In this document: positions 15,891 through 46,200 of the stretch, piece by piece
Layout of the letters: every line of letters starts with the position of its first letter
How positions within the stretch are numbered: position 1 is the first letter of the stretch
Virus record (IMG/VR): IMGVR_UViG_3300034103_001617
Coordinates: 1-57,610 of that record
DNA from: a virus
Strand: one strand, 5' to 3'
DNA length: 57,610 nucleotides
Notes under the pieces: model-generated
What the model saw: only the letters and a program-made list of their open reading frames with translations
The model's database searches: none
What the model was told of the DNA's origin: nothing
Made by a program: the position numbers and the translations under genes

Positions 15891-16203
15891 ACCCAGGATG
15901 TTGTTTTTTTGTAAACAAATCTGTTTCACAAGGTGTGCATTCATCACGTTTACAAACACTGAAATCATCAAATAATTTAAAGTCTTGGTCAAAAAGATTA
16001 CCCAAGCAATCGTTACGGCATTGCCCACTGTAAACTGTGAAATCATGATCAACAAAGATCATGTCTTTGCCTGCCGAGCATTGCCAATCTTTCCAACGTG
16101 CAAGTCCAAGATCATACAGTCGACTTGCGTTCACAGCCACCTCTTGACCGTCGGCTGTGGTGACCACAGCGTTACAGTTCTGATCTTTGATCAATGCTAT
16201 CAT
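15880..16203 (-). CDS. Stand-alone SPASM-like cysteine-rich protein
   Basis: 107 residues with eight or so cysteines in the C-terminal two thirds: WQCSAGKDM...GQCRNDC...VCKRDECTPCET, the spacing of an auxiliary Fe-S (SPASM/twitch) domain. It overlaps the radical SAM gene at 16172-16840 by 32 bases in another frame and lies immediately downstream, so it looks like the detached C-terminal half of a radical SAM/SPASM enzyme. It may be a genuine two-subunit enzyme or an old frameshift. Confidence 0.7.
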   Translation of the reverse strand: MIALIKDQNCNAVVTTADGQEVAVNASRLYDLGLARWKDWQCSAGKDMIFVDHDFTVYSGQCRNDCLGNLFDQDFKLFDDFSVCKRDECTPCETDLFTKKQHPGFDQ

Positions 16204-19064: not shown

Positions 19065-19295
19065 TTACTTTTTATACAAGTCTCGCATGAATTCTTGTGC
19101 AACATAGTAATCTACTAGTTTTCTTTGAATCATTGTAATGACATCACCAGCATCGTCATCTACAATGAATCTAACAGGACATCGACCCCAGGTGTGATGT
19201 TTTACAAATTCAGAATAGTATCGCCTATGATTCTTGTTTGTAGGATCAAACACTACCCAGGGTCTAGCAGAAAGTTGAAGTTTACTCAAAGTCAA
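19065..19295 (-). CDS. Small phage-type protein co-translated with SAH hydrolase
   Basis: 76 residues with the phrases [20 protein letters not shown] and [13 protein letters not shown] followed by an amphipathic helix. Family of unknown function. The start overlaps the end of ahcY (ATGA), which suggests joint translation rather than a shared function. Confidence 0.7.
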
Positions 19296-29350: not shown

Positions 29351-29938
29351 TTACATAGCTCGTTTGATTTTTTCCAATATTATTTCAACAACTTTGCTAG
29401 AAAGCACAACTTCATAGTGATTTAGATCAACTTCAATGAGCTCAAAATCTTTTCTGTAGGTCATGCTGTCCAAAGTGACCACACCGTCATTTTTTTCTCT
29501 GATCCAAGGACTGTCACCTTTCATGGTTACAATATTGGTCCAATTTGGTGGAGCAGCAAGGCGTCTGGCTTCGGTCATGGGCTCAGACATTGTGCCGATG
29601 TCTTTCATAAGCCTACTAAAGGGCAAAAAGTAACGTGCAAAGTCTGCTTGGAAACAGCCTCCAAAAGGAGTACTCAATGAAATTCCGCCTTTGGTTCTGT
29701 CATTGTAATGATTGGCCAGATGCAGTGCATAGATACCGCCTAAACTATGAGATATGAAAAATAACTTTTCAGCGTCATCTAGCTTGCCATACATTTGATC
29801 AATGTTATGATCAAACCCATTTGCACTATCATATTCAAGTGCAACATCGGGTAGTTCTGTGTAATCTCTTACATATTGCCTAATGTACGAAAAACTTTCA
29901 GCAGTGGCACTGGCACCGTGTATGTAAACGATCACCAT
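29351..29938 (-). CDS. Alpha/beta-hydrolase (lipase-like)
   Basis: 195 residues. VIVYIHGASAT (oxyanion region), the nucleophile elbow SHSLGG (around residue 85), an acid candidate in EKNDGVVTLDS and the catalytic His in DLNHYEV (around residue 174). The substrate may be a lipid or ester; no signal peptide, so cytoplasmic. It follows the tmRNA terminator. Confidence 0.85.
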   Translation of the reverse strand: MVIVYIHGASATAESFSYIRQYVRDYTELPDVALEYDSANGFDHNIDQMYGKLDDAEKLFFISHSLGGIYALHLANHYNDRTKGGISLSTPFGGCFQADFARYFLPFSRLMKDIGTMSEPMTEARRLAAPPNWTNIVTMKGDSPWIREKNDGVVTLDSMTYRKDFELIEVDLNHYEVVLSSKVVEIILEKIKRAM

Positions 29939-29952
29939 ATGATATTTATCAT

Positions 29953-29975
29953 GAAAAAGCCCGCCGAAGCGGGCT
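29953..29975 (-). terminator. Rho-independent terminator of the tmRNA gene
   Basis: AGCCCGC-TTCG-GCGGGCT hairpin with a UUCG-type loop followed by five T on the minus strand. Confidence 0.92.
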
Positions 29976-30281
29976 TTACTATTTTTGGTGACAAGGCATA
30001 GTTGCCTCGGAGATTATGCTGCTAGAGCAAAAACCTCATCATTAGCTGCGTTTGCAGTTATAGTTTTGCTTGATTTACGGTCATCGCCTACCGTGTTGTC
30101 CGTATCCTTACTCATTGCCCTGTCGAAACCATGTCTAGCCCATCAAAAGCACACTTGGAAGATTTATTTACCGCTGACTATTACTCTTCCCCAGCGTCAC
30201 TATAGTATGCTTATGGTGGACCAGGCGGGAGTCGAACCCGCGTCCAGAACACCTTTCATTCAACTTCATACAACAATAAAA
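29976..30281 (-). ncRNA. ssrA: Circularly permuted (two-piece) tmRNA
   Basis: On the minus strand the acceptor piece comes first: GGACGCGGGTTCGACTCCCGCC, then CCA, ending at 30214. A 72-base intervening segment follows. The coding piece starts at 30141 with GGGCTAG, which pairs fully with CTGGTCC of the acceptor piece, then the conserved ATGGTTTCGAC. The tag frame (30017-30055) reads ANAANDEVFALAA and stops with TAA; if the second Ala codon is the resume codon the tag is AANDEVFALAA. A helix and a terminator follow. It rescues stalled ribosomes and tags their products for proteolysis. The permuted gene order is known in alphaproteobacteria, cyanobacteria and some betaproteobacteria. Confidence 0.93.
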
Positions 30282-31481
30282 TTATTTACTAAACTTTACT
30301 GCTTCCTCACTACCACTGGTTGTATTGCCTTTGCTGTAACTATGAGCACCAACGCCCGCTAGTTGTCCACCTTGAACCACTAGATATTCGTTACGCAGAG
30401 GACGACCTTCAAACCAGCACTCTAACACTTCGCGTACACCTGCTGCATATCTAGTTTGAGCACTGAGGCTGGTGCCAGATATGTGTGGAGTCATGCCATG
30501 CCAGGGCATGCTGCGCCAAGGATGATCTTGTGGGGCTGGCTGTGGGAACCATACATCACCTGCATATCCGGCCAGTTGACCCGATTCAAGTGCTCGGGCA
30601 ATTGCATCGCGATCACAGATCTTGCCACGAGCAGTGTTTACAATATAGCTGCCTCGTTTCATTCTGGCAATCATTGCATCGTCGAACAAGTGTTCGGTTT
30701 CAGGATGCAATGGACAGTTGATGGTCACAATGTCTAAGTGTGGCAACATACTTGCTACAGTATCGTGCCAAGTAAGATTAAGTTCTTTTTCTATGTGCTC
30801 TGGTAAACGATGGCGATCGTAATAATGCAAATGAACGTCAAACGGTTTTAACAGTCTCAAGGCTCGCAAGCCAATGCGTCCTGCTGCCACAGTGCCCACA
30901 TGCATTCCTTCAATGTCATAGCTGCGACTCACACAGTCAGCAATGTTCCAGCCGCCTTCCACAACCTGTTTGTAACTGGGAATATAGTTTCTTACAAGGC
31001 TCAACATCTGCATCACAATGTGTTCTGCCACACTGTTGCTGTTGCAGTAGGTAATTTCTGCCACTGTAATACCACGTTCCATAGCAGCCTGCAGGTCAAC
31101 ATGGTCCGAACCAATTCCGGCAGTTAGTGCCAGTTTAAGTTTTGGTGCCTTGGCAATGCGTTCTGCTGTGAGATAAGCAGGCCAAAACGGCTGACTGATC
31201 ACAACTTCAGCATCATGCAGGTGTCGTTCAAATTCACTGTCAGGGCCATCCTTGTCGCTGGTGACCACCAGTTCATGCCCTTCGCGAGCCAACCAATCAC
31301 GCAGGCCCAAAGCCCCAGTTACACTGCCCAATAACTCACCGGGAGTGAAATCAATTGCATGCGGGGTTGGTGCAGTCTGACCATCAGGGTAACCATCAAT
31401 TTTAGGAATGCTATCTCTAGCATAACTTGTTGGGTAACCATCAACGGGGTCATCATAAAGTACACATAAAATTTTTGCCAT
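30282..31481 (-). CDS. fdh: NAD-dependent formate dehydrogenase
   Basis: 399 residues, the full length of the bacterial/plant-type enzyme of the D-2-hydroxyacid dehydrogenase superfamily. FDH-specific stretches run throughout: KILCVLYDDPVDGYP at the start, SQPFWPAYLT, TYCNSNSVAEH, the NAD loop AAGRIG, GGWNIADCVSR, NTARGK (catalytic Arg), WFPQPAPQDHPWR (Gln) and MTPHISGT (catalytic His), and the C-terminal GGQLAGVGAHSYSKGN. It oxidises formate to CO2 and makes NADH, the last step of methylotrophic C1 oxidation. TCTCCT before the ATG (minus AGGAGAAA) is a good ribosome site. Confidence 0.96.
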   Translation of the reverse strand: MAKILCVLYDDPVDGYPTSYARDSIPKIDGYPDGQTAPTPHAIDFTPGELLGSVTGALGLRDWLAREGHELVVTSDKDGPDSEFERHLHDAEVVISQPFWPAYLTAERIAKAPKLKLALTAGIGSDHVDLQAAMERGITVAEITYCNSNSVAEHIVMQMLSLVRNYIPSYKQVVEGGWNIADCVSRSYDIEGMHVGTVAAGRIGLRALRLLKPFDVHLHYYDRHRLPEHIEKELNLTWHDTVASMLPHLDIVTINCPLHPETEHLFDDAMIARMKRGSYIVNTARGKICDRDAIARALESGQLAGYAGDVWFPQPAPQDHPWRSMPWHGMTPHISGTSLSAQTRYAAGVREVLECWFEGRPLRNEYLVVQGGQLAGVGAHSYSKGNTTSGSEEAVKFSK

Positions 31482-35457: not shown

Positions 35458-35547
35458 TGGCGGAAGCGGTGAGATTCGAACTCACGGACAATTTCTCGTC
35501 GTCTGTTTTCAAGACAGGTGCAATAAACCGGGCTCTGCCACACTTCC
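35458..35547 (-). tRNA. tRNA-Ser(UGA)
   Basis: 90 bases, class II with long variable arm; anticodon loop CTTGAAA; CCA encoded. First gene of the tRNA region. Confidence 0.95.
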
Positions 35548-35559
35548 ATAAATATTTTT

Positions 35560-36393
35560 GTGAGTAAGTTACATTTAGATCATATCGAGTTCTATATTAC
35601 AAATGTTTGTAATCTTTCATGCGATAACTGTCGCAGTTTTAACAACTATAAATTTTCCGGCCATTACAAATTTGACGCAGAAGCCACACAGGCCTGGGCC
35701 GATAAGTTAGACATTGCGGACATAGCTATCATCGGCGGTGAACCAGCTTACCATCCTGATTTGGCAAGTTGGATTGTGGGACTGCGTAAATGTTGGCCAA
35801 ATGCTACTCTAAAGTTGATTTCAAATGGAACCAAACTTAGTCTAGTAAAAAATTTACACAAACTTCTTGCAGACAACAATTGTAAACTCAACATTTCAAC
35901 TCATGGTTATCATCTTAGACCGCAAATAGCTGAAGAAATCTTTTCAGCGTTCGGTGCATGCGAAGTATTACCTATAGAATCTTCAAAACTTTTTGGAGTT
36001 GTTAACAGTGTGTATTTTAGAACCAAGCTAGGTGTTATCATTGATTTGCAAAATGGCAACAGTTTACAAGAAATTTGTTTTGTAGACAACCAGTTTAATC
36101 TACACAATAGCGACGCTGAAAAAGCGCATTCCACCTGTGCCATACGCGAATGCCATCACATGATTGATTACAAGATATACAAATGTTCTATAGTGGGTCT
36201 GTTGCCTAGTTTTCTAAAACAGCAAAAACAAACCACGGATCATTTGCTGCCCTATCATGGCATTGACGTTGAGTCAGTTACACAAGACGTTCTTGATCAA
36301 CTTGCATTATCAATACCTCATTGCAAAATATGTCCTGAGGCCAATAGTTACAAACCCATAACCAGTGTGCTAAAGAAAATGCACAGAGTTTAG
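35560..36393 (+). CDS. Radical SAM protein, paralogue 1 of 3
   Basis: 277 residues from a GTG at 35560, on the plus strand against the surrounding minus-strand tRNAs. FYITNVCNLSCDNC holds the cluster cysteines, IIGGEPAYHPD the SAM site, LISNGT the next strand. The C-terminal CAIREC-HHM...YKCS...CKICPE cysteines form a likely auxiliary cluster region. Two relatives are at 41238 and 43480. Substrate unknown; peptide or RNA modification is possible. Confidence 0.85.
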   Translation: MSKLHLDHIEFYITNVCNLSCDNCRSFNNYKFSGHYKFDAEATQAWADKLDIADIAIIGGEPAYHPDLASWIVGLRKCWPNATLKLISNGTKLSLVKNLHKLLADNNCKLNISTHGYHLRPQIAEEIFSAFGACEVLPIESSKLFGVVNSVYFRTKLGVIIDLQNGNSLQEICFVDNQFNLHNSDAEKAHSTCAIRECHHMIDYKIYKCSIVGLLPSFLKQQKQTTDHLLPYHGIDVESVTQDVLDQLALSIPHCKICPEANSYKPITSVLKKMHRV

Positions 36394-36800
36394 TAAGGAT
36401 AGTCTTTGCTTATCCAATAGGACAAGGGAGTTTCAAAGTCAAATGCCAATGTTCCATCACAACCAACCACTGTGCCAAATTCTTCTATGGTGTGATCCCC
36501 GTATCCGTTGAAATTGTGAGTAAATGTGCCTTTGATCACAGGCATGACATCAATACCATCAAATGTTAGAGATTTCAATTCAACTGCTGCATCAACATTG
36601 TCAGTGGTTTCAATAAGTGCTCGTTTACCAGTAATTTCAATTTCAAACAAGTGTTTGATAATTTGTGTGTCATCTGCTTCAAACTCAAAGGTACATGCCT
36701 CATGATTTGCGAGCTGTTTGCCGTATGATATCTTGTCAACAAAGATTTCATAACTCAATGCGTCTTTGGTTAATGAAACAATTTGTAAGCCTATGTTCAT
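36390..36800 (-). CDS. Protein of unknown function, beta-rich
   Basis: 136 residues, mostly beta-strand patterns with many acidic and aromatic residues, ending SYWISKDYPY. It overlaps the radical SAM gene tail to tail by four bases and could be its partner or target, but that is only positional. Confidence 0.6.
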   Translation of the reverse strand: MNIGLQIVSLTKDALSYEIFVDKISYGKQLANHEACTFEFEADDTQIIKHLFEIEITGKRALIETTDNVDAAVELKSLTFDGIDVMPVIKGTFTHNFNGYGDHTIEEFGTVVGCDGTLAFDFETPLSYWISKDYPY

Positions 36801-36808
36801 TGGTTAAT

Positions 36809-36892
36809 TGGTGCGGATAGAGGGACTTGAACCCCCACGCCTTTCGGCAACAGCTTCTAAGACTGCCATGGCTACCATTACATCATATCCGC
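36809..36892 (-). tRNA. tRNA-Leu(UAG)
   Basis: Class II with long variable arm (TTGCCGAAAGGC); anticodon loop CTTAGAA; CCA encoded. Confidence 0.93.
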
Positions 36893-36898
36893 AAAACT

Positions 36899-37468
36899 TC
36901 ATACAAAATGTGCTTTGAGAATTTCAGCTAGTTTGAAATAAGAAATTTCTTTATCACCATCTAAAAATGATACCTGACACAAATATCTATCTTTGCCAGA
37001 GTAATTGATTGCCGTATGCAGAATACCAGTGTTAACAAGCGTGGGGTTGGTGTGTATCTTGCTTCTATAGATTTCAGTTACGGAATCGTCTTCAACAGAA
37101 TAATTTTCTTTGTTTTCCCAATCACGTATCACTGTCATTGAATGTCCTGCCTTGAGTTCAAACCAAATTTGATCAGCATCATTGTGACCATATATCCAGT
37201 TTAATCGACCCCAGTCAGTGACACTAGGTCCGTCGATGTGTACTCTATGCGAAGGTGATTGTGCATTTGTTAGTCTAAAAAATGTTCTAAACAATACAAG
37301 TTCATGTGCTTCACAAAATTCAGTAAACTTTGGATTTATAAATTGTTTTGGCACAATTGGTGGAATACCTAGTTTTGGGTTCCAGGTGTTGTACCATTCA
37401 CATACATTTTCGAAACTAGTAAGTACGTCTGGTATACAAATATCTAAACTTTGACAAAATTTATTCAT
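36899..37468 (-). CDS. Aspartyl-hydroxylase-like 2OG/Fe(II) oxygenase
   Basis: 189 residues. RVHIDGPSVTDWGRLNW has the HxD pair (around residue 75); LVNTGILHTAINYSGKDRYLCQVSF has the distal His and the Arg for 2OG (around residues 150-165). It overlaps the methyltransferase gene by eight bases. Target unknown. Confidence 0.72.
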   Translation of the reverse strand: MNKFCQSLDICIPDVLTSFENVCEWYNTWNPKLGIPPIVPKQFINPKFTEFCEAHELVLFRTFFRLTNAQSPSHRVHIDGPSVTDWGRLNWIYGHNDADQIWFELKAGHSMTVIRDWENKENYSVEDDSVTEIYRSKIHTNPTLVNTGILHTAINYSGKDRYLCQVSFLDGDKEISYFKLAEILKAHFV

Positions 37469-38132
37469 TGCTTATCAGTGCTTGCTGCATCCAGTCAGTG
37501 CTTTGTGCTGATTCAATTTCGTGAACATAGTATAGATCAGGACCTGTCCAATATTTACTTAAGATTTTCCTATAAAAATCTTCGGTTCTTTGACTGCTGA
37601 TACTGTGTATGATTTTATGATAATCTAGAATTTGTGCGTCGTTGACTGCTATATTTGCAGGGGCAATATTAGACTGTGCCGGTTGGCCGCAAATGAAACA
37701 AAACTTGGTTGTGCGCTTGGCGATTTGGCCTAACCACCATTCAAAATCTTGATCCAATATTGAGCCTACTACCCAAATACACACTGTGCAATCGTATTGT
37801 TGATCCGGCCAGTGATCAATGCCAGGCACAGCAGGATCAAATTGATCGTATACATCCAGCCCAAAACGTTCAACTATGGTCATTGGCGCAGTAAGCGTAT
37901 TTGACACATGATCAATCCAACGTTGAGGTTCAAGTTGTAAACCTCGACCTGCACCTACTTCCAACATTGAGTGTGTATTGTACTTTTCTAGAAGATTGCA
38001 AATCAACGGCTCTGCTTTGAGTAGGCCTTGCCCATCTCCCCAGTGTCTACCATCAGATGATGCAAATGTCATAGGCCTTTGATGCATTAGCCTAGACATT
38101 CTAATTATTTCACTGTAACCATCACTGACCAT
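37461..38132 (-). CDS. SAM-dependent methyltransferase-like protein
   Basis: 223 residues. The motif SMLEVGAGRGLQ (around residue 56) matches class I SAM-binding motif I, and TIVERFGLDVYD could be motif II with an acidic residue. The C-terminal half is divergent. Probably acts with the oxygenase gene that overlaps it. Confidence 0.7.
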   Translation of the reverse strand: MVSDGYSEIIRMSRLMHQRPMTFASSDGRHWGDGQGLLKAEPLICNLLEKYNTHSMLEVGAGRGLQLEPQRWIDHVSNTLTAPMTIVERFGLDVYDQFDPAVPGIDHWPDQQYDCTVCIWVVGSILDQDFEWWLGQIAKRTTKFCFICGQPAQSNIAPANIAVNDAQILDYHKIIHSISSQRTEDFYRKILSKYWTGPDLYYVHEIESAQSTDWMQQALISNE

Positions 38133-38159
38133 GTTATATTTCTAATCTGTGTAAGCAAT

Positions 38160-38250
38160 TGGTGCTCCCGCCCGGAGTCGAACCAGGATTGGCCGTTTAT
38201 CTGACGCTACGGGATATAAGTCCGCTGTTTTACCATTAAACTACAGGAGC
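38160..38250 (-). tRNA. tRNA-Ile(UAU), atypical
   Basis: Anticodon loop CTTATAT (UAU). Acceptor GCTCCTG/CGGGAGC with A73 and encoded CCA pairs well, and the D and T arms are normal. The variable region is about 20 bases, long for an Ile tRNA, and the closing anticodon-stem pair is an A-C mismatch. It would read AUA without lysidine. Confidence 0.75.
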
Positions 38251-38254
38251 ACGG

Positions 38255-38554
38255 TTACTCATCATCTGGCATCAAACCATTGTGTTTTTTGTCTCTGACA
38301 TTGTCCAGATCTTGTTCAAGTTTGAGTTCTTGCGGTGTTTTCATTCCATGCACCTTTCGCGGATTACCACATAAAGCACATTCTGGACGACCACAATCCA
38401 TGGCATGATGTTTTACAAGCCTGTGTGGTTCTTTAAGCATAGCGTTTTTGTCAGAAATTCCACGTTGCTTGGCGATCTTGACTTGTCTCGCCACCGCGCT
38501 TTCATCTTTGTGTCTGCGCCGCGAGTTTGAAAATTTGTTTTGTTCGTTACTCAC
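38255..38554 (-). CDS. Small zinc-knuckle-like basic protein
   Basis: 99 residues, very basic N-terminal half (SNSRRRHKDE...KIAKQRG), then HHAMDCGRPECALCGNPRK with a CX4CX2C metal-binding pattern. A nucleic-acid-binding role is inferred. Confidence 0.68.
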   Translation of the reverse strand: MSNEQNKFSNSRRRHKDESAVARQVKIAKQRGISDKNAMLKEPHRLVKHHAMDCGRPECALCGNPRKVHGMKTPQELKLEQDLDNVRDKKHNGLMPDDE

Positions 38555-38564
38555 AGTGGTTCCT

Positions 38565-38639
38565 TGGTTGCAGGGGGCGGATTCGAACCGCCGATCCCCA
38601 GGTTATGAGCCTGGTGAGATGCCTCTTCTCCACCCTGCG
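38565..38639 (-). tRNA. Initiator tRNA-fMet(CAU)
   Basis: CGCAGGG at the 5' end leaves C1 unpaired against A72, the bacterial initiator hallmark. Anticodon loop CTCATAA; the anticodon stem has two of the three G-C pairs typical of initiators; CCA encoded. Confidence 0.9.
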
Positions 38640-38650
38640 TCTAAATTTAT

Positions 38651-38818
38651 TTAAGAATTCTTTTCACTCTTACGCGGAGCACGTGATTGATTTTTTACCA
38701 CTTCAACAAAGTCTCTTAAAAAATTATCGCGTTTTTGTTTATCAAAAATTCCAGCTGCCATGGCCTTGACTGGTTTGGTTAACTTAACTGCTTTTGGGTC
38801 ATATCCTCTACAGGTCAT
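38651..38818 (-). CDS. 55-residue basic protein
   Basis: Lys/Arg-rich, starting MTCRGYDPKAVKLTKPVKAM and containing FDKQKRDNFLRDFVEVVKN. Hypothetical, between tRNA genes. Confidence 0.55.
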   Translation of the reverse strand: MTCRGYDPKAVKLTKPVKAMAAGIFDKQKRDNFLRDFVEVVKNQSRAPRKSEKNS

Positions 38819-38828
38819 AAAATTCCTT

Positions 38829-38981
38829 TTAGCTAGGTATTACGTGGGGAATATATGGTACGTTTCTTGGACCACCATATAGTTGTTCAAAAAGTTTTTT
38901 TGCTTCTTGTGGAGTGTCTGCATACACACGTTTTTTTTCATCACCATTTGGTGTACGCACTGTGGTTTCATATAAAGGCAT
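38829..38981 (-). CDS. 50-residue protein
   Basis: Starts MPLYETTVRTPNGDEKKRVY, then PQEAKKLFEQLYGG; looks like a small strand-helix domain. GGAA lies upstream of the ATG. Family unknown. Confidence 0.55.
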   Translation of the reverse strand: MPLYETTVRTPNGDEKKRVYADTPQEAKKLFEQLYGGPRNVPYIPHVIPS

Positions 38982-38996
38982 TTAATTTCCTTGCAA

Positions 38997-39074
38997 TGGT
39001 CGGGGAAGAGGGATTCAAACTCTCGATCTCCTGCTCCCAAAGCAGGCGCTTTAATCAGACTAAGCTACTCCCCG
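38997..39074 (-). tRNA. tRNA-Pro(UGG)
   Basis: Anticodon loop TTTGGGA; acceptor CGGGGAG pairs with CTTCCCC region; CCA encoded. Confidence 0.93.
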
Positions 39075-39210
39075 CTGTTTTTAGTTATACCGCACAGTAA
39101 CTAAAATTTTTTTCTAACATATAGAAACACTCTTGATCTCCAGTCCATCATGGTGATCAATCCACTTTTGACCTTCAATGATCCTGCGTCCAGTTTAGAG
39201 TGTTTTTATA

Positions 39211-39287
39211 TGGTAGGTGCGGTGAGACTCGAACTCACAACTTATCGGTTAAAAGCCGATTACTCTAACCAGTTGAGTTACGCACCC
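39211..39287 (-). tRNA. tRNA-Lys(UUU)
   Basis: Anticodon loop CTTTTAA; G1-U72 wobble; CCA encoded. A 15-codon upstream frame ends inside its 5' arm. Confidence 0.94.
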
Positions 39288-39325
39288 ATACGTTTGGGAC
39301 CGTCGTCCGTTTTGTCACTGTCCAT
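39278..39325 (-). CDS. 15-residue leader-peptide-like frame upstream of tRNA-Lys
   Basis: AAGGAG nine bases before ATG at 39325; product MDSDKTDDGPKRMGA, with its TAA inside the tRNA-Lys acceptor/D region. It lies just after the promoter at 39356-39384. Could be a chance frame. Confidence 0.3.
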   Translation of the reverse strand: MDSDKTDDGPKRMGA

Positions 39326-39355
39326 GTGTGGACTCTCCTTTGTTAACTTACACAC

Positions 39356-39384
39356 ATTGTACTATCGTTTCATATTATGGTCAA
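39356..39384 (-). promoter_or_regulatory. Sigma70-like promoter for tRNA-Lys and following genes
   Basis: -35 TTGACC, 17-base spacer, -10 TACAAT. Confidence 0.8.
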
Positions 39385-39454
39385 GCCATAAAAGTAAGAC
39401 TACCGTCAAAAACACAACACTCAAAGCCCCATGATTGTTTCTCCTTTGTAGTAC

Positions 39455-39634
39455 CTATTTTGCTATGTAAACACAGCCTGCATTGACTCTGTAACCGTCA
39501 ATCTTTACTGTGGCCAAGATTTGTTCTTTGGCCTTGATGCATTCGGCATGTCCGGCATATTTTAAATTTAAACTGCCATTGCTGGTCGAACTACCGGGCA
39601 TGATGCTAAACAACGTTATTACAAGTATCCACAT
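39455..39634 (-). CDS. 59-residue secreted two-cysteine protein
   Basis: Start at 39634 with AAAGGAG upstream. Short hydrophobic N-terminus (MWILVITLFSIMPGS), mid-chain HAECIKAKEQI and C-terminal NAGCVYIAK. Two similar small proteins follow upstream (39651 and 39937); likely periplasmic with one disulphide. Confidence 0.62.
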   Translation of the reverse strand: MWILVITLFSIMPGSSTSNGSLNLKYAGHAECIKAKEQILATVKIDGYRVNAGCVYIAK

Positions 39635-39650
39635 CTTATTGCTCCTTTGA

Positions 39651-39830
39651 TTATTTTTTAGTTGTTTTTGGACTGCACAACGCAACATGTTCAGGATGCT
39701 TGTCACTCCACTGCTTGTGAGCAATCATGCATTCTTGATAGTTTGGATATTCTTTTTTATACACAAACTTCATTGTTGGTGGTGGGTCGGTCCACAGTTG
39801 TATGATTAAAATCCAAGGCATTAAATCCAT
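39651..39830 (-). CDS. 59-residue secreted two-cysteine protein
   Basis: Start at 39830 with AGGAG upstream. MDLMPWILIIQLW hydrophobic start, NYQECMIAHKQW in the middle and HVALCSPKTTKK at the end; same plan as its neighbours. The open frame further upstream is a tRNA. Confidence 0.62.
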   Translation of the reverse strand: MDLMPWILIIQLWTDPPPTMKFVYKKEYPNYQECMIAHKQWSDKHPEHVALCSPKTTKK

Positions 39831-39861
39831 ACAAGTCTCCTCTTTAGTAAAATGCCAAACT

Positions 39862-39935
39862 TGGTACCCCCGGATGGTAACGATCCAACGTCTATCGATT
39901 ATCAATCGATTGCTCTGCCTTTGAGCTACAGGGGC
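39862..39935 (-). tRNA. tRNA-Ile(GAU) with unusual T loop
   Basis: Anticodon loop TTGATAA with a perfect stem; acceptor GCCCCTG pairs with CGGGGGT (G1-U72); CCA encoded. The T loop is CGTTACC rather than TTCRANY, although the T stem is intact, so tertiary D/T contacts may be impaired. Confidence 0.8.
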
Positions 39936-39936
39936 A

Positions 39937-40095
39937 TTATTTTTGTACACAGTCAACTTTGAGTTTAGACTGTACTTTGTTGAGGTAGTATTCAAGTCTT
40001 GACTTTCGTTCAAGACAGGTGGGCAAATCATTTAACACTTCATGTTCTACATAATTGCTGGTTACGCCAAACCATATTATCAGTGCAAATTTCAT
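39937..40095 (-). CDS. 52-residue secreted two-cysteine protein
   Basis: Start at 40095 with AAGGAGG upstream. MKFALIIWFGVTS start, DLPTCLERKSRLEYYL and KVDCVQK at the end; third member of the small two-cysteine set. It lies between tRNA-Ile and tRNA-Phe. Confidence 0.62.
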   Translation of the reverse strand: MKFALIIWFGVTSNYVEHEVLNDLPTCLERKSRLEYYLNKVQSKLKVDCVQK

Positions 40096-40116
40096 TGTTT
40101 TGCCTCCTTGGCTGTT

Positions 40117-40192
40117 TGGTGCCGACTCTTGGTTTCGAACCAAGCCCTTGTGCTCTTCAGGCACACGCTTCCACCAGGTTAGCTTAGTCGGC
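40117..40192 (-). tRNA. tRNA-Phe(GAA)
   Basis: Anticodon loop CTGAAGA; acceptor GCCGACT/AGTCGGC; CCA encoded. Confidence 0.95.
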
Positions 40193-40194
40193 AA

Positions 40195-40270
40195 TGGGGT
40201 ATCTGACCGGTATTGATCCGGTACTACCGCTTTCACAGAGCAGGGTGCAGGCCACTACACTACAGACACC
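40195..40270 (-). tRNA. tRNA-His(GUG)
   Basis: Anticodon loop CTGTGAA; extra 5' G opposite C73, the His identity feature; T loop ATCAATA deviates slightly; CCA encoded. Confidence 0.92.
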
Positions 40271-40272
40271 AT

Positions 40273-40348
40273 TGGTAGGGGATGAGGGACTCGAACCCCC
40301 GAATGTCGGAATCAAAATCCGATGCCTTGCCAGCTTGGCGAATCCCCA
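40273..40348 (-). tRNA. tRNA-Gln(UUG)
   Basis: Anticodon loop TTTTGAT; acceptor TGGGGAT; CCA encoded. Confidence 0.93.
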
Positions 40349-40351
40349 GTT

Positions 40352-40381
40352 GAAAAAGAAAAGAGGTAGCAAGCTACCTCT
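40352..40381 (-). terminator. Rho-independent terminator after pqqA
   Basis: AGAGGTAGC-TT-GCTACCTCT hairpin followed by TTTCTTTTT on the minus strand. Confidence 0.88.
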
Positions 40382-40405
40382 CAATGTATTACCTAAATTG
40401 ATGAA

Positions 40406-40477
40406 TCAACGATTTGCGATATACATTGTGATCTCGAAGCCGAAGCGTAGATCAGTTGCTGTTGGTTTGGTCCACAT
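40406..40477 (-). CDS. pqqA: PqqA, pyrroloquinoline quinone precursor peptide
   Basis: 23 residues with AAAGGAG seven bases before the ATG at 40477. The peptide begins MWTKP, continues [12 protein letters not shown] and ends IANR; Glu15 and Tyr19, the two residues that become PQQ, have the exact E-x3-Y spacing and flanking DLR-x-GFE-x-T context of bacterial PqqA. PqqD presents this peptide to the radical SAM enzyme PqqE, which links Glu and Tyr. No pqqBCDE lies in the window, so the host must finish the cofactor. It has its own promoter, a palindromic leader and a strong terminator, as a highly expressed single gene would. Confidence 0.93.
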
Positions 40478-40495
40478 GTTTTTCTCCTTTGAAAT

Positions 40496-40516
40496 ATACA
40501 TGTACTGCACATGTAT
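40496..40516 (-). promoter_or_regulatory. Palindromic leader/operator upstream of pqqA
   Basis: ATACATGT-N5-ACATGTAT inverted repeat between the promoter and the ribosome-binding site; it could be an operator or a 5' hairpin that stabilises the short mRNA. Confidence 0.5.
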
Positions 40517-40544
40517 TTAAAGCATGATAACACAGTCTAGCCAA
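40516..40544 (-). promoter_or_regulatory. Sigma70-like promoter for pqqA
   Basis: -35 TTGGCT, 17-base spacer ending GC, -10 TTTAAA, weaker than the others but with the same spacing. Confidence 0.5.
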
Positions 40545-40597
40545 TATATCTATACATAATAAACTTAATGTACCGTAATGATTTTCATGAAACTTAT

Positions 40598-40672
40598 TGG
40601 CCCGGCGTGAGGGAATCGAACCCCCATTAAGAGTTTAGAAGACTCCTGTCCTATCCATTGAACGAACGCCAG
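40598..40672 (-). tRNA. tRNA-Arg(UCU)
   Basis: Anticodon loop CTTCTAA; acceptor CTGGCGT/ACGCCGG with G73; CCA encoded. Confidence 0.94.
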
Positions 40673-40673
40673 G

Positions 40674-40749
40674 TGGAGCGGGTAATCGGGTTCGAACCGA
40701 TGACATCTACCTTGGCAAGGTAGTGCTCTGCCAACTGAGCTACACCCGC
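40674..40749 (-). tRNA. tRNA-Gly(GCC)
   Basis: Anticodon loop TTGCCAA; acceptor GCGGGTG; CCA encoded; one base from tRNA-Arg. Confidence 0.95.
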
Positions 40750-40753
40750 ATGT

Positions 40754-41224
40754 TTATGCCGCAAGTTTTTTTAACCTGTCAGCGGCATAACTAGCCGCAA
40801 AAGCATTTGGCTTCACTAGAGGAATCACATTGCATGTACCACGAATGTAACCAATTGCCTGTGTTATAACACAACTTGATCCTGCATGTTCATCAGGATT
40901 GATATCAAGGTGAACTTCTACATGATAGTCTTCAAGCTCTGGCGCAAGACGTTGAAACACTTCACTGACTTTGTAGACTTCATTCATAAGTCGCATGCTT
41001 GGCTTTGATAGCTTGTGATCATAATCGCGTTCTCTACTGACTTCACCAAATATCTTACAACCATTGTTACCGTTGACATGGATGACCAATGCAACAGTGT
41101 ACTCTGCCCACCATTGTTTGCCTTCGCGATATCTAAAACTGTCTGCACCCAAATAAATTTTGGTATTTGGCCCGCAGGTGGCAAGATATTGTTGTACTGT
41201 TTCTAATTTGATTGTTCTTGCCAT
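40754..41224 (-). CDS. RNase H-like protein (DUF458/YkuK type)
   Basis: 156 residues with GGAGG upstream of the ATG at 41224. IYLGADSFRYREGKQWWAEYTVALV, KLSKPSMRLMNEV and VHLDINPDEHAGSSCVITQAIGYIRG resemble the YkuK ribonuclease-H-like fold, with acidic residues in the expected strands. It may act on RNA, possibly tRNA or tRNA precursors given its position, but this is inference. Confidence 0.72.
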   Translation of the reverse strand: MARTIKLETVQQYLATCGPNTKIYLGADSFRYREGKQWWAEYTVALVIHVNGNNGCKIFGEVSRERDYDHKLSKPSMRLMNEVYKVSEVFQRLAPELEDYHVEVHLDINPDEHAGSSCVITQAIGYIRGTCNVIPLVKPNAFAASYAADRLKKLAA

Positions 41225-41237
41225 CAAGGCCTCCATT

Positions 41238-42368
41238 TTAGTTTATGGCCGGTCCGGAGAGATTCGAACTCCCGACAGCTGGTTTCGAAGACCAGAACTC
41301 TTCCGCTGAGCTACGGACCGTGTTGTAAAATTTTATTTTCTTAGTACCGGCTTCAAATTTTGAGTTATAATCTCCAGTGGACTGACAAAATTTACATTGT
41401 GCTATGGGTTTGTCTTTTTTCAATTCTAGCACAAAGTTTTCGAGTTCTCCATCAGTGGCTGTGACCTTGCAGTGTTTGTACTTGTTTAATAACTCAAAAT
41501 CTTCTGCACTGATATCAAATTGAAACTGGTTTAACATTTCTGGCAGTAGTGCCACTGTGCTGCATTTGTACAAGTTACCACGATTTAGATGATGAACCAT
41601 GATTTCAAGTTCACGATCACGACCGCAACACACAGCATAGGCAGCTTTGATGTTGCTGTTGTGCAATGACATGTTGCCAGTGGTGTTGTCATATATCACT
41701 GCACTGGTCCAAAATTGATTTTTTAACGAAACCGGAACAACTATGCCTAGATCATTTCTAACTTCGCTTACATATAAATTATTGATCCAATTGTTGTAAC
41801 TCAGTCCAAAGATCTCACTGCATTCATCTTGTATTTGAGACGGCAATTCTAGAAAGTCTTCGGGTGTCTTGCATTCTGGCCACAATGGATCTTTAATCTG
41901 CTGATAACTGTTTAGCCAAGTGGTTATTTCACTGTGATTGGGTTTGTGAGTCACAGTGGCATTGTTGCCCAACCAAGACATCAAGTCATTGCATATTTTT
42001 TGTTTCTGTTTGACACCATGAGCACTTATTGTTAACAGTAATCTACTTTTATATTTTTCCAAAAGTGATCTAACTTCTGGGTATCTATGCAGTTCAGTTC
42101 CATTGCTCAACAACTCAATGTTGCTGTTGGGCCACAGCTCCAGGACATTTTCAAGCCAAGGCATCAAATCTGGATGTACAAATGGTTCTCCGCCTAGTAT
42201 ACCTATGGTCTTGATATGAAGACGCTGACTCCAAGTTTTGTAAATTTGCTTGTAGTCGTTCCAACGTTGGTGACCTCGAAATGCAAAATTGTTGAATGTA
42301 ACACAATTAGGACAATTTAGATTACAAACATTTGTAATGTAGATCTCGCAACGTTCTATGCTAACCAT
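41238..42368 (-). CDS. Radical SAM protein, paralogue 2 of 3, reading into tRNA-Arg
   Basis: 376 residues from MVSIERCEIYITNVC. CNLNCPNC and ILGGEPFVHPD are the radical SAM motifs; C-terminal cysteines CCGRDRE...YKCS...CKFCQ resemble those of its paralogues. No stop occurs at the expected end of the domain and the frame runs through tRNA-Arg(UCG) on the same strand, adding about 25 residues that are translated tRNA. Either the natural stop was lost or the tRNA moved in. Confidence 0.82.
   Translation of the reverse strand: MVSIERCEIYITNVCNLNCPNCVTFNNFAFRGHQRWNDYKQIYKTWSQRLHIKTIGILGGEPFVHPDLMPWLENVLELWPNSNIELLSNGTELHRYPEVRSLLEKYKSRLLLTISAHGVKQKQKICNDLMSWLGNNATVTHKPNHSEITTWLNSYQQIKDPLWPECKTPEDFLELPSQIQDECSEIFGLSYNNWINNLYVSEVRNDLGIVVPVSLKNQFWTSAVIYDNTTGNMSLHNSNIKAAYAVCCGRDRELEIMVHHLNRGNLYKCSTVALLPEMLNQFQFDISAEDFELLNKYKHCKVTATDGELENFVLELKKDKPIAQCKFCQSTGDYNSKFEAGTKKIKFYNTVRSSAEEFWSSKPAVGSSNLSGPAIN
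41246..41320 (-). tRNA. tRNA-Arg(UCG)
   Basis: Anticodon loop CTTCGAA; U34 instead of the usual A34 (inosine), so it could read all CGN; acceptor CGGTCCG/CGGACCG, G73; CCA encoded. Confidence 0.94.
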
Positions 42369-42555
42369 TACGTCTATTCGCTGATTTTGCTGCACGATAT
42401 TGTAGCACACCTTCGTAAGCCAAAACAAGCCAACCACACAGTGCCATGATGTAGGCGTTAACTGCGGCCCAGTTATTTGCCATGAAACTCAACACTAGAT
42501 TAACCAAAATGGCAACAACTGCAACTACTGGAAATAAATTTATAAAATGTAACAT
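42361..42555 (-). CDS. 64-residue membrane protein
   Basis: GGAGG before ATG at 42555. Two hydrophobic segments (LFPVVAVVAILVNLVLSFM and YIMALCGWLVLAYEGV) and a basic tail RAAKSANRRNG. Function unknown. Confidence 0.6.
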   Translation of the reverse strand: MLHFINLFPVVAVVAILVNLVLSFMANNWAAVNAYIMALCGWLVLAYEGVLQYRAAKSANRRNG

Positions 42556-42575
42556 GACTACCTCCAAAAAAAATT

Positions 42576-42668
42576 TGGCGGAAACGGTGGGATTCGAACC
42601 CACGGACCATTGTTAAGATGATCGACGGTTTAGCAAACCGCTGCCTTCGGCCACTCAGCCACGTTTCC
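42576..42668 (-). tRNA. tRNA-Ser(GCU)
   Basis: Class II; anticodon loop TTGCTAA; acceptor GGAAACG/CGTTTCC; CCA encoded. Confidence 0.95.
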
Positions 42669-42677
42669 AGATGTTGA

Positions 42678-42881
42678 TCACTTGTAACGATCTTTCATTT
42701 CATTAACTGTGGAATCAAATTCCAAGCGAGTTAAAATCAACGAATACATTACCACAACACAAACCATGATTCCAAACACAGGCAAAGCCCACCAACTCAG
42801 TTGACTCAGTACATACCCAATACCAAACGGTATTGCTAAACTTAAAAAAGTGTACAACGCTGCTTTGATTTTCAATGACAT
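42678..42881 (-). CDS. 67-residue membrane protein
   Basis: AAGGAGA before the ATG. Two membrane helices (LYTFLSLAIPFGIGYVL and ALPVFGIMVCVVVMYSLIL), then a charged tail. Function unknown. Confidence 0.6.
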   Translation of the reverse strand: MSLKIKAALYTFLSLAIPFGIGYVLSQLSWWALPVFGIMVCVVVMYSLILTRLEFDSTVNEMKDRYK

Positions 42882-42912
42882 AGCTGTCTCCTTAACAAAC
42901 TGTATAACCTAG

Positions 42913-42941
42913 ATTTTACTTTAAGTTAGATATTTTGTCAA
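42913..42941 (-). promoter_or_regulatory. Sigma70-like promoter
   Basis: -35 TTGACA, 17-base spacer, -10 TAAAAT, between tRNA-Met and the small membrane gene it drives. Confidence 0.6.
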
Positions 42942-42949
42942 GTGAAATT

Positions 42950-43025
42950 TGGTGGTGAAGGAGGGATTTGAACCCCCGACACTCTCCGTATGAAGGAGGT
43001 ACTCTACCATCTGAGCTACATCACC
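42950..43025 (-). tRNA. Elongator-type tRNA-Met(CAU)
   Basis: Anticodon loop TTCATAC; G1-C72 pair intact, so not an initiator. A tRNA-Ile2(CAU, lysidine) identity is possible but less likely because an Ile(UAU) is also encoded. CCA encoded. Confidence 0.85.
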
Positions 43026-43027
43026 TT

Positions 43028-43264
43028 TTAGTTGCCCCAAGCAAGAACGAACAATGTTCTATCTTGATCCCATTTAAAGGCTATACCAATGTTGTTGAGT
43101 ATATTACAATCATCATAAGCCCACACAGCATATCTTGGACCCACGCGATCTTTGAGCCAACTTTCAACAACAGTAATACCTTGTATCCAATCTACTTGGC
43201 AGTGATCAAACACAGGCCAAGGCACTGTAGCATGGTATTGAAAGCGGTGCCAGTCCACTAACAT
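43028..43264 (-). CDS. Small phage-type protein
   Basis: 78 residues from MLVDWHRFQYH (43264); the open frame further upstream is tRNA sequence. Trp-rich: VDWIQGITVVESWLKDRVG and FKWDQDRTLFVLAWGN. Family of unknown function. Confidence 0.65.
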   Translation of the reverse strand: MLVDWHRFQYHATVPWPVFDHCQVDWIQGITVVESWLKDRVGPRYAVWAYDDCNILNNIGIAFKWDQDRTLFVLAWGN

Positions 43265-43275
43265 GCCGATATTTA

Positions 43276-43353
43276 TGGAGCAACGGGCGTGATTCGAACA
43301 CGCGGTTTTCAGGATTTGCAGTCCCGTGCATTGGGCCTCTCTGCCACCGTTGC
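43276..43353 (-). tRNA. tRNA-Cys(GCA)
   Basis: Anticodon loop CTGCAAA; acceptor GCAACGG/CCGTTGC; CCA encoded. Confidence 0.95.
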
Positions 43354-43360
43354 ATAAAAT

Positions 43361-43434
43361 TGGTGCCCCTTGACAGAATCGAACTGCCAATCCATGATTA
43401 CAAGTCAAGTGTTATGCCATTTAACTAAAGGGGC
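43361..43434 (-). tRNA. tRNA-Thr(UGU)
   Basis: Anticodon loop CTTGTAA; acceptor GCCCCTT/AAGGGGC; CCA encoded. Confidence 0.95.
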
Positions 43435-43479
43435 AATCAATCATTACGATCTATAAAAATAAAGTTAATAAATATTTCA

Positions 43480-44355
43480 ATGCTGAAAATATTCACTGCT
43501 GAGTTCTACCTCACACACCATTGCAATCTTGACTGCGAGCATTGTAATCGATTTTCTAATTATAAAGCATTACGCGGTCATCGCAGTTGGCAAAATTATG
43601 CAGCAGAGTACCAAAGTTGGGCAAACAACCTTGATATAGATATCATAAGCATTCTTGGCGGAGAGCCATTGATGCATCCGGATATCTTAGAATGGATGCA
43701 ACAAATAAGAAGTTGGTGGCCAAAATCATCTTTGTACTTAATGACCAACGGCACACTGTTGAATCGTGTATCTGGTTTGTACGATGCGGCAAAAGATTAT
43801 CAATATGTAATTGACATCAATGTGCATAATCCAAGTTGGTACAACCAAACCGTTCAAAGTCTTGACAATTTTTTCCCCGGCCAATATACAATAGAACAGG
43901 CCAAAGATGATCCTATTTTTTCTAGACAAGTTGCAAAAGATCACAATGGGGTAGAAGTTCACATCAAACACAGCTCACGCATGCACCAAAGCACGGTGCT
44001 ACTCAATCAAGACAAGTTTCATTTACACCAAAGCGATCCAGTAAAAGCTCACAGTGTTTGCTGGAACGCAACATGCCATCACTTTTTCAATGGCAAACTT
44101 TTTAAATGTGCAATGCCACCATTGCTGAAAGAATTTTCCAATGTGTGCTATCTAGATCTATCCGAGGAAGACCGAGCACTTATTGATGGTCCCAGCGGGA
44201 TAACAGTGGATGACGCTGTGGCTGATCCTGATAAGTTTTATCAATATCTAAAAGGACCAATTGAGCATTGCCGCTTGTGTCCAGAAGAACTTGAATTTAA
44301 AAATATAGCAGCAAAGGTTGCCAAAACTGTTATACCAATTCAGCTGTATCGCTGA
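43480..44355 (+). CDS. Radical SAM protein, paralogue 3 of 3
   Basis: 291 residues on the plus strand inside the tRNA region. FYLTHHCNLDCEHC and SILGGEPLMHPD carry the core motifs; CWNATCHHF...FKCAMPP...CRLCPEE form the likely auxiliary cluster region shared with paralogues at 35560 and 41238. Like paralogue 1 it is read against the tRNAs, so it is separately transcribed. Confidence 0.85.
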   Translation: MLKIFTAEFYLTHHCNLDCEHCNRFSNYKALRGHRSWQNYAAEYQSWANNLDIDIISILGGEPLMHPDILEWMQQIRSWWPKSSLYLMTNGTLLNRVSGLYDAAKDYQYVIDINVHNPSWYNQTVQSLDNFFPGQYTIEQAKDDPIFSRQVAKDHNGVEVHIKHSSRMHQSTVLLNQDKFHLHQSDPVKAHSVCWNATCHHFFNGKLFKCAMPPLLKEFSNVCYLDLSEEDRALIDGPSGITVDDAVADPDKFYQYLKGPIEHCRLCPEELEFKNIAAKVAKTVIPIQLYR

Positions 44356-44369
44356 TCACTGCATTGTAC

Positions 44370-44445
44370 TGGTGGGCGGTGACAGGTTCGAACTGCCGAC
44401 ATTCGCGGTGTAAGCACGACGCTCTACCAACTGAGCTAACCGCCC
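44370..44445 (-). tRNA. tRNA-Val(UAC)
   Basis: Anticodon loop CTTACAC; acceptor GGGCGGT/ACCGCCC; CCA encoded. Confidence 0.95.
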
Positions 44446-44452
44446 AAGAAAT

Positions 44453-44704
44453 TTAGTTGTCCTTGACGTCTTTGGCATCAACGCAGGTTTCACCTCTAAA
44501 CACATAGACGTCACTGTCTAATCTTAGCTGTTCAAACACTTGATTGTTTACGCAGATATAAGGATCTTTGTGATTTTCCATGTAAAAGAATATGCCGTAG
44601 CCTATGCCTGCCAACACCATTAGTATGGGTGTGTACTTTAGATACTTTACAATCTCAGGCATTGCACCCAAAATTTGCGGCAAATTTTTAAGCAGTTCTT
44701 TCAC
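44453..44704 (-). CDS. Membrane-anchored small protein
   Basis: 83 residues from a GTG at 44704; an ATG at 44728 would lie inside tRNA-Glu. One membrane helix (YTPILMVLAGIGYGIFFYM) and a polar tail with two cysteines (PYICVNNQ, GETCVDAK), probably facing the periplasm. Confidence 0.55.
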   Translation of the reverse strand: MKELLKNLPQILGAMPEIVKYLKYTPILMVLAGIGYGIFFYMENHKDPYICVNNQVFEQLRLDSDVYVFRGETCVDAKDVKDN

Positions 44705-44717
44705 GCTGATATTTATG

Positions 44718-44792
44718 TGGTACACCATAGCGGAGTCGAACCGCTCTTGCTGGAATGAAAATCCAGAGTCCTAACCGATAGACGAATGGTGC
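44718..44792 (-). tRNA. tRNA-Glu(UUC)
   Basis: Anticodon loop TTTTCAT; acceptor GCACCAT with G1-U72; CCA encoded. Confidence 0.94.
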
Positions 44793-44799
44793 ATAAAAT

Positions 44800-45246
44800 T
44801 TAATGCTAACAAGGAACTGACTGTTACATGATGCCGAAGTCATTACCGCATCAAACCCTTGCTAAACCCGCATTGCGGGACGATTCGCACTCAATCGTTT
44901 TGATCTAAATCTTGCTTAATGAAGCCAATATTAGTTTTGCAGTTTATACTATATGCCTCGCTCAACAGCTTTACACGTGATTACTGTTTATTGCTTCGGT
45001 TACATAATGCCTCGCGCCGGCTTCTGTGCTTACAAACTGCAAAATTAATATTGCTTAGGCTACTTGTTTTCCAGGCAAGCCCCTATGCTGAGTTGTTACC
45101 CTGTCCACATTTGTTTCAGCGTATCGTGCTACCGGTTGTGTCCGGATATCTAGGTGCTGTGCTCTGCATTGCGCTAACGGTAGCCTAGCCAACCGGTCTA
45201 ACTAACGTGTGACACCCGGCACTTTCAGGAAAGTGCTAACCGGAAC
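44800..45246 (-). ncRNA. Large structured RNA candidate within the tRNA array
   Basis: About 440 bases without a credible protein frame between tRNA-Asn and tRNA-Glu. A 22-base stem joins 44926-44947 and 45032-45053 with one mismatch and one wobble, enclosing about 85 bases that include a repeated GCGAGGCAT. Other hairpins: CACTTT-CCTG-AAAGTG, CCCGC-AAT-GCGGG, GATGC/GCATC, GGCTTG/CAAG-AGCC. Large ornate RNAs (GOLLD, ROOL) are known beside tRNAs in phage genomes; this one is shorter and I cannot assign it. Strand is assumed from the tRNAs. Confidence 0.72.
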
Positions 45247-45322
45247 TGGCTGCTCAGGTTGGGCTCGAACCAACGACACACGGATTAACAGTCCGCTGAT
45301 CTACCGACTGATCTACTGAGCA
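45247..45322 (-). tRNA. tRNA-Asn(GUU)
   Basis: Anticodon loop CTGTTAA; acceptor TGCTCAG/CTGAGCA, G73; CCA encoded. Confidence 0.94.
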
Positions 45323-45330
45323 ATAAACTT

Positions 45331-45408
45331 TGGCGACACTTACGGGATTCGAACCCGTGATCTCTGGCGTGACAGGCCAGCGCATTGGGCCAGCTATGCT
45401 AAAGTGCC
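45331..45408 (-). tRNA. tRNA-Asp(GUC)
   Basis: Anticodon loop CTGTCAC; stem CTGGC/GCCAG; CCA encoded. Confidence 0.95.
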
Positions 45409-45417
45409 TTTTGCTAT

Positions 45418-45503
45418 TGGTACCCGGAGCCGGACTCGAACCGGCACGCCCTATCGAGCATTGGATTTTAAGTCCAAGGTGTCTACCATTCCACCACCCG
45501 GGC
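45418..45503 (-). tRNA. tRNA-Leu(UAA)
   Basis: Class II; anticodon loop CTTAAAA; acceptor GCCCGGG; CCA encoded. Confidence 0.95.
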
Positions 45504-45545
45504 ATATTTTTTAAATTGTAAAAGATCAAGCACAACCAAGTTCGC

Positions 45546-45574
45546 ATTGTACTAGATTACAATTTTGGAGTCAA
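45546..45574 (-). promoter_or_regulatory. Sigma70-like promoter for tRNA-Leu, Asp and Asn
   Basis: -35 TTGACT, 17-base spacer, -10 TACAAT. Confidence 0.78.
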
Positions 45575-45616
45575 TAAAATTGTGTTGTATTTTTACAACA
45601 AACAATTGATGTAAGT

Positions 45617-45691
45617 TGGTGGAGGTACCCGGATTCGAACCGAGGACTCCGCGGTGCAAACGCAGTGTTTTCCCAATTATACTATACCCCC
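45617..45691 (-). tRNA. tRNA-Ala(UGC)
   Basis: Anticodon loop TTTGCAC; acceptor GGGGGTA; CCA encoded. Confidence 0.92.
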
Positions 45692-45699
45692 ACAGGTTA

Positions 45700-45773
45700 T
45701 GGAGCGGCGTGCGAGAATCGAACTCGCGACTTTAGCTTGGAAGGCTAAGGTAATACCATTTTACGAACGCCGC
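45700..45773 (-). tRNA. tRNA-Gly(UCC)
   Basis: Anticodon loop CTTCCAA; acceptor GCGGCGT/ACGCCGC; CCA encoded. Confidence 0.95.
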
Positions 45774-45778
45774 ATAGA

Positions 45779-45852
45779 TGGCGACCCTTGAGAGATTTGA
45801 ACTCCCACCGACGGTTTTGGAGACCGGTATGCTGCCGTTACACTAAAGGGCC
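45779..45852 (-). tRNA. tRNA-Trp(CCA)
   Basis: Anticodon loop CTCCAAA; acceptor GGCCCTT; 3' CCA encoded. Confidence 0.94.
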
Positions 45853-45855
45853 GTG

Positions 45856-46089
45856 TCAAACTGAAACTATTTCAACTGATACTGGATTAAAGCCTTGCAC
45901 GTAGTTCAACAATATTTGAGCATCTGTTTCATTCATAAATGACCATTCCACAGTGGCATGCCCACTTGGTACGTCATCTTTTAACTCCCAGGCTAAAGCC
46001 TTGCCGGGGTAGTTTTCAAGGAAGGCTAGTGCTTCCTCTGGGTTTGGTGAACTCTCAGCGAACACAGCGCGAACAAGTTTAATTGTCAT
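45856..46089 (-). CDS. Small protein of unknown function
   Basis: 77 residues, beta-alpha pattern: TIKLVRAVF, PNPEEALAFLENYPGKALAWEL, ATVEWSFMNETDAQILLNYVQ. GGAGACC lies before the ATG. It sits between tRNA-Tyr and tRNA-Trp. Confidence 0.62.
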   Translation of the reverse strand: MTIKLVRAVFAESSPNPEEALAFLENYPGKALAWELKDDVPSGHATVEWSFMNETDAQILLNYVQGFNPVSVEIVSV

Positions 46090-46115
46090 AATGGTCTCCT
46101 AATACAATATTTATT

Positions 46116-46200
46116 TGGTGGGGATCCAGGGACTCGAACCCCGTATGTCAGAGACGTCGGATTTACAGTCCGATGCAGTAGCCAGTTCTGCTCGATCCCC
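46116..46200 (-). tRNA. tRNA-Tyr(GUA)
   Basis: Class II; anticodon loop CTGTAAA; acceptor GGGGATC/GATCCCC; CCA encoded. First tRNA downstream of the hairpin leader. Confidence 0.94.

Follow-up and report, generated by a model that had tools for sequence, protein, structure and literature searches.

The pqqA gene and its signals

The stretch of DNA analysed here, which we call the window, is a linear 57.6-kb virus record from IMG/VR with 41% G+C. Its minus strand, read from 40477 to 40406, carries a 72-bp gene that encodes a 23-residue PqqA peptide, the precursor of PQQ. The gene and the features around it are as follows.

40406–40477, minus strand: pqqA coding sequence with stop codon (PF08042, TIGR02107, translation)
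40484–40490, minus strand: Shine–Dalgarno sequence AAAGGAG, 6 nt 5′ of the ATG
40496–40516, minus strand: perfect 8-bp inverted repeat ATACATGT-GCAGT-ACATGTAT, directly 5′ of the ribosome site
40524–40552, minus strand: weak sigma-70-like promoter candidate TAGATA-17-TATCAT, with TG before the second hexamer
40361–40382, minus strand: intrinsic terminator, a 9-bp stem followed by a T run, directly 3′ of pqqA
40194–40520, plus strand: overlapping open reading frame, antisense across two tRNA genes

The peptide matched the Pfam profile PF08042 with 39.1 bits (cut-off 21.1, E = 8.3e-11) and the NCBIfam equivalog TIGR02107 with 40.1 bits (cut-off 20), and PF08042 had no match in any of 14 control genomes. 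Glu15 and Tyr19, the residues that become PQQ, stand in E-x3-Y spacing, and the length falls inside the reported PqqA range of about 23–39 residues (PMC2294125). Related viral sequences carry the gene too, with changes that are mostly synonymous, which puts it beyond chance. Read on the plus strand, the same interval holds an internal stop and was ruled out, and the longer plus-strand frame is not a credible gene because it runs antisense through two tRNA genes. Judged from its sequence, the interval encodes a true PqqA. The first-pass annotation had placed pqqA at exactly these coordinates, leaving the minus strand unstated, and had described a PqqA layout that two curated models and the E15/Y19 spacing now bear out. 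Two checks that it had proposed, a search against PqqA profiles and one of related phage contigs, gave matches over the cut-off in both Pfam and NCBIfam and pqqA in relatives.

The strong ribosome site and strong terminator that had been claimed for this gene are both present, as AAAGGAG 6 nt before the ATG and as a 9-bp stem with a T run after the stop codon. A Shine–Dalgarno-like site lies 5′ of 138 of the 139 viral pqqA copies, and a terminator-like structure follows 43% of distinct viral copies as against 4.8% in shuffles. The gene had also been credited with its own promoter. A candidate exists, with a 9/12 match to the consensus, but it is a weak one, as the region has seven promoter-like sites where shuffled sequence predicts 3.8 ± 2.3. 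The inverted repeat is a candidate hairpin or operator. Two relatives (L274 and L275) have 9- and 7-bp inverted repeats of other sequences in the equivalent position before the pqqA ribosome site, and upstream repeats of at least 7 bp occur at 20% of viral pqqA copies (3.5% in shuffles).

Genome setting and probable host

That pqqA lies in a viral genome is indicated by the IMG/VR record itself, by PHROG matches that include exonuclease, ThyX, ATPase and a virion structural protein (head and packaging class), and by gene sharing with viral contigs. Many window genes are common to viral contigs of 100–236 kb, so we read the window as a fragment of a large phage. No close DNA match to window positions 1–25000 was found among known phages. 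The main context features are listed here.

35458–46200, minus strand: cluster of 26 tRNA genes enclosing pqqA (ARAGORN, Rfam)
30282–31481, minus strand: full-length NAD-dependent formate dehydrogenase (NF005750, 701.9 bits, cut-off 329)
29923–30306, minus strand: permuted tmRNA of betaproteobacterial type with tag ANAANDEVFALAA (ARAGORN; RF01850, 136.8 bits, gathering 84; RF04321, 138.8 bits)
27349–29229, minus strand: complete DnaK of 626 aa, 71–76% identical to Burkholderiales DnaK
24457–25863 and 25925–26947, minus strand: adjoining phosphate-selective porin (OprP-like) and PstS
19292–20578, minus strand: S-adenosylhomocysteine (AdoHcy) hydrolase (TIGR00936, 619.6 bits, cut-off 497.6)
56649–57608, minus strand: methionine adenosyltransferase MetK, truncated by the window end (TIGR01034, 381.4 bits, cut-off 309.4)
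6–773, 754–2052, 16172–16840, 35560–36393, 41238–42395 and 43480–44355: six radical SAM-like proteins

Within the tRNA cluster, pqqA is flanked by tRNA-Arg (tct) on one side and tRNA-Gln (ttg) on the other. This setting, outside any pqqBCDE operon, distinguishes it from cellular PqqA (PF08042, TIGR02107); the two agree in length, the W-T-x-P start, the E-x3-Y core, the ribosome site and, often, a terminator downstream. The formate dehydrogenase aligned to PDB entry 2gsd over residues 1–399 (753 bits), and its reaction is the last step of methanol oxidation. Together with AdoHcy hydrolase and MetK, it fits methanol and one-carbon metabolism. Seven viral relatives of the enzyme (L186–L192) are 84–100% identical to it. 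The tmRNA adjoins the formate dehydrogenase gene, and a similar pair is found in L190, where the tag is ANDEKFALAA. The porin and PstS pair suggests phosphate-starvation genes.

PqqE and methanol dehydrogenase were searched for as well. The window has no PqqE (best score 17 bits against a cut-off of 381), nor do 12 other viral pqqA records, and on this search we rejected a complete PQQ pathway in the phage. The window gave no methanol dehydrogenase, and among 51 viral records searched 50 had none. The sole match, in the IMG/VR contig G464, has curli-like, outer-membrane and molybdenum-type formate dehydrogenase genes as its neighbours. We left it out as evidence because the contig may be bacterial DNA, at least in part. 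One stretch of this contig (L319, 28000–42000) carries both pqqA and the methanol dehydrogenase gene.

We then compared the window peptide with bacterial PqqA. All 13 betaproteobacterial genomes with a window-like PqqA have pqqA in one to three copies; PqqE passed the cut-off in nine of them, and a PQQ alcohol dehydrogenase did so in ten. The closest bacterial PqqA found (genome G358, also betaproteobacterial) agrees at 19 of 22 residues, the last 15 being identical to those of the window, and its gene is followed by pqqB, pqqC and pqqE, as named from their translations. DnaK does not resolve the host, since it is similarly close to many Burkholderiales. No close relative of the formate dehydrogenase was present in the PqqA-bearing bacteria sampled (best 33%; 23 betaproteobacterial genomes). 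From the G358-type operon, the PqqE and PQQ alcohol dehydrogenase of bacteria with similar PqqA, and the betaproteobacterial tmRNA, the host of this phage is probably a PQQ-making betaproteobacterium; it was probably also a methylotroph.

Viral copies of pqqA and selection

To survey phage records we ran tblastn against 50,697 of them with two separate queries, the window peptide and an OM43-phage-type peptide. Both returned the same 12 records. Two of these are Acinetobacter contigs and were excluded; the one that was opened (L047, CAKLQF020000010.1), titled 'Acinetobacter phage MD-2021a', encodes polyphosphate kinase along with pqqABCDE and appears to be bacterial chromosome. The remaining ten are nine cultured Methylophilales phages (Venkman, P19250A, MEP301, MEP401, MEP402 and four Melnitz strains) and one environmental podovirus. 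Their lengths lie between 34.8 and 141.6 kb, some are classed as Zobellviridae or Kyanoviridae, and the cultured carriers fall into several unrelated groups. The peptide of P19250A is identical to the PqqA (EMRFGFEVTMYVMNK type) of several streamlined 1.3-Mb betaproteobacterial genomes, which have two or three pqqA copies each.

None of the ten carrier records annotates PqqA. The site mostly has no feature and is otherwise called a hypothetical protein, with an antisense open reading frame in both records that were opened; PHROGs matched neither of two phage PqqA peptides. The first-pass annotation had expected so short a gene to escape gene calling, and most cultured methylophage records do indeed lack a feature there. 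Two pattern scans of viral contigs, with 19 and at least 120 carriers, raised the count to at least 139 contigs matching PqqA patterns, although viral status was checked for part of these and the short ones may include bacterial DNA. One 94.5-kb viral contig (G012, the L013 record) has two copies, at 4117–4173 and 74312–74368.

Among 128 distinct viral copies, Glu15 and Tyr19 are both invariant. The search patterns required Glu15, but neither required Tyr19. Over codons 18–23, which both patterns left free, pN/pS was 0.16 across the same copies. Pairwise comparison of the window gene gave eight synonymous codons to one nonsynonymous against L012 and 11 to one against L018. These codon comparisons show viral pqqA to be under purifying selection.

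Among viruses related to the window, 4 of the 33 genomes or fragments searched carry pqqA. Two of the carriers (G426 and G431) are relatives of the window virus genome-wide. In G426, whose formate dehydrogenase and AdoHcy hydrolase are 96% and 87% identical to those of the window, pqqA also adjoins the tRNA cluster.

Proposed role and alternative explanations

We consider it likely that this is a free-standing auxiliary pqqA of a large tailed phage, supplying precursor so that host PqqD and PqqE keep making PQQ. Precursor supply to a host with pqqBCDE was also the role suggested in the first-pass annotation, and on present sequence evidence it is still the best reading; we infer expression during infection, processing by host PqqD and PqqE, and a benefit to the phage. 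Upon infection, pqqA would be transcribed into a short mRNA with a terminator of its own and translated into the 23-residue peptide. This would be bound by host PqqD and PqqE, which would cross-link Glu15 with Tyr19; PqqB, PqqC and a peptidase, likewise from the host, would complete PQQ, which XoxF/MxaF methanol dehydrogenase uses as its cofactor. Each PQQ would use up one PqqA while the catalytic Pqq enzymes are reused, so the phage would need only the 72-bp pqqA, and cofactor supply could be maintained as host transcription falls. Phages carry other auxiliary genes that top up consumed or short-lived host factors, such as cyanophage psbA. The window gene resembles these as a lone host-like gene that would sustain energy metabolism in infection, but its product is a cofactor's peptide precursor, not an enzyme or a subunit of a photosystem.

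Published work bears on this demand for precursor. All carbons and nitrogens of PQQ come from the Glu and Tyr of PqqA, which is made in roughly 20-fold excess over PqqC or PqqE (PMC2294125), and one methylotroph that produces PQQ carries pqqA five times, with three of the copies lying outside operons (PMC9851590). In Acetobacter, extra pqqAB raised PQQ by 29% and the full cluster eightfold (PMC7936290); given the modest gain from pqqAB in this one test, PQQ synthesis in healthy cells may not be limited by PqqA alone. We also count against precursor supply that pqqA occurs in just 4 of the 33 related viral genomes or fragments, that the PqqA-bearing bacteria sampled have no close relative of the phage formate dehydrogenase, and that no methanol dehydrogenase was found in the window.

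The main rival is that pqqA is a passenger, a small cassette acquired from hosts that retain orphan, separately terminated copies, and of no benefit to the phage. Hosts often have one to three pqqA copies, and some of these lie apart from the operon. So small a gene costs little to carry, and its presence in only 4 of 33 relatives or fragments would suit a passenger too. What speaks against this is conservation: the pN/pS of 0.16 at unconstrained C-terminal codons, the invariant Tyr19, the 8:1 and 11:1 ratios against related viral copies, and the ribosome sites that have been kept. The gene is also found in several unrelated methylophage groups. On this selection evidence the passenger explanation is disfavoured, and we regard it as unlikely.

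Phages often inhibit functions of their host, and phage PqqA, which by homology should bind the same machinery, might instead act as a decoy that competes for host PqqD and PqqE or stalls, slowing or redirecting PQQ synthesis and methanol oxidation. A decoy would have no need of the Tyr and Glu that react, but neither varies among the viral copies (Tyr19 without being required by the search), and some phage peptides, P19250A's for example, match bacterial PqqA at every residue. The formate dehydrogenase carried alongside also suggests support of methanol oxidation, and we think a decoy very improbable. Least probable of all, by a little, is that one of the radical SAM-like proteins of the window, some of which are encoded a few kilobases from pqqA, converts PqqA into a different product, as none is PqqE-like, they resemble radical SAM proteins of other phages, and the 12 other viral pqqA records tested lack PqqE too.

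Returning to precursor supply, a broader proposition is that a lone pqqA, acquired repeatedly, is a near-universal hallmark of methylophages, present in most lineages from 35-kb to jumbo phages though missed by gene callers, because methylotroph metabolism during infection is limited at PqqA supply. We hold this to be evenly balanced. Methanol dehydrogenase needs PQQ, and in a cultured OM43 methylotroph no transcript is more abundant than that of its gene xoxF (PMC5120137). If methylophages routinely carry the precursor, they would have a direct effect on methanol oxidation in the sea and in fresh water, and pqqA could serve for host assignment, as a simple marker tying uncultured viruses to methylotroph hosts. 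The gene also exposes an annotation blind spot, as PHROGs gives no match to either of two phage PqqA peptides and published genomes of cultured methylophages omit it. Because cultured methylophage–host pairs exist, the role can be tested directly by experiment now.

Viral pqqA itself has been reported before. The first-pass annotation knew of no phage pqqA, and two papers contradict it: Coutinho et al. 2020, who reported that viruses of methylotrophs in Lake Baikal encode PqqA and methanol dehydrogenase (PMC7678222), and a 2026 paper on reservoir sediments that lists viral pqqA, pqqD and pqqE (PMC13188868). Papers on cultured methylophages (PMC9004378, PMC10580990, PMC8163748, PMC8024684) do not describe pqqA, and what appears to be new, as undescribed in the literature searched, is the breadth of the unannotated gene across cultured methylophage lineages. 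The reservoir-sediment viruses are like the window in that pqqA is listed as a viral auxiliary gene; there the genes were read as serving phosphate solubilisation, and pqqD and pqqE are included (PMC13188868), whereas the window has no PqqE. The Baikal viruses carry methanol dehydrogenase, which the window lacks, having NAD-dependent formate dehydrogenase and tmRNA instead. The window resembles Lake Baikal VP_266, which was assigned to methylotrophs, in having a PqqA precursor gene, and the sister population VP_139 in having radical SAM proteins, MetK and an AdoHcy-cycle enzyme.
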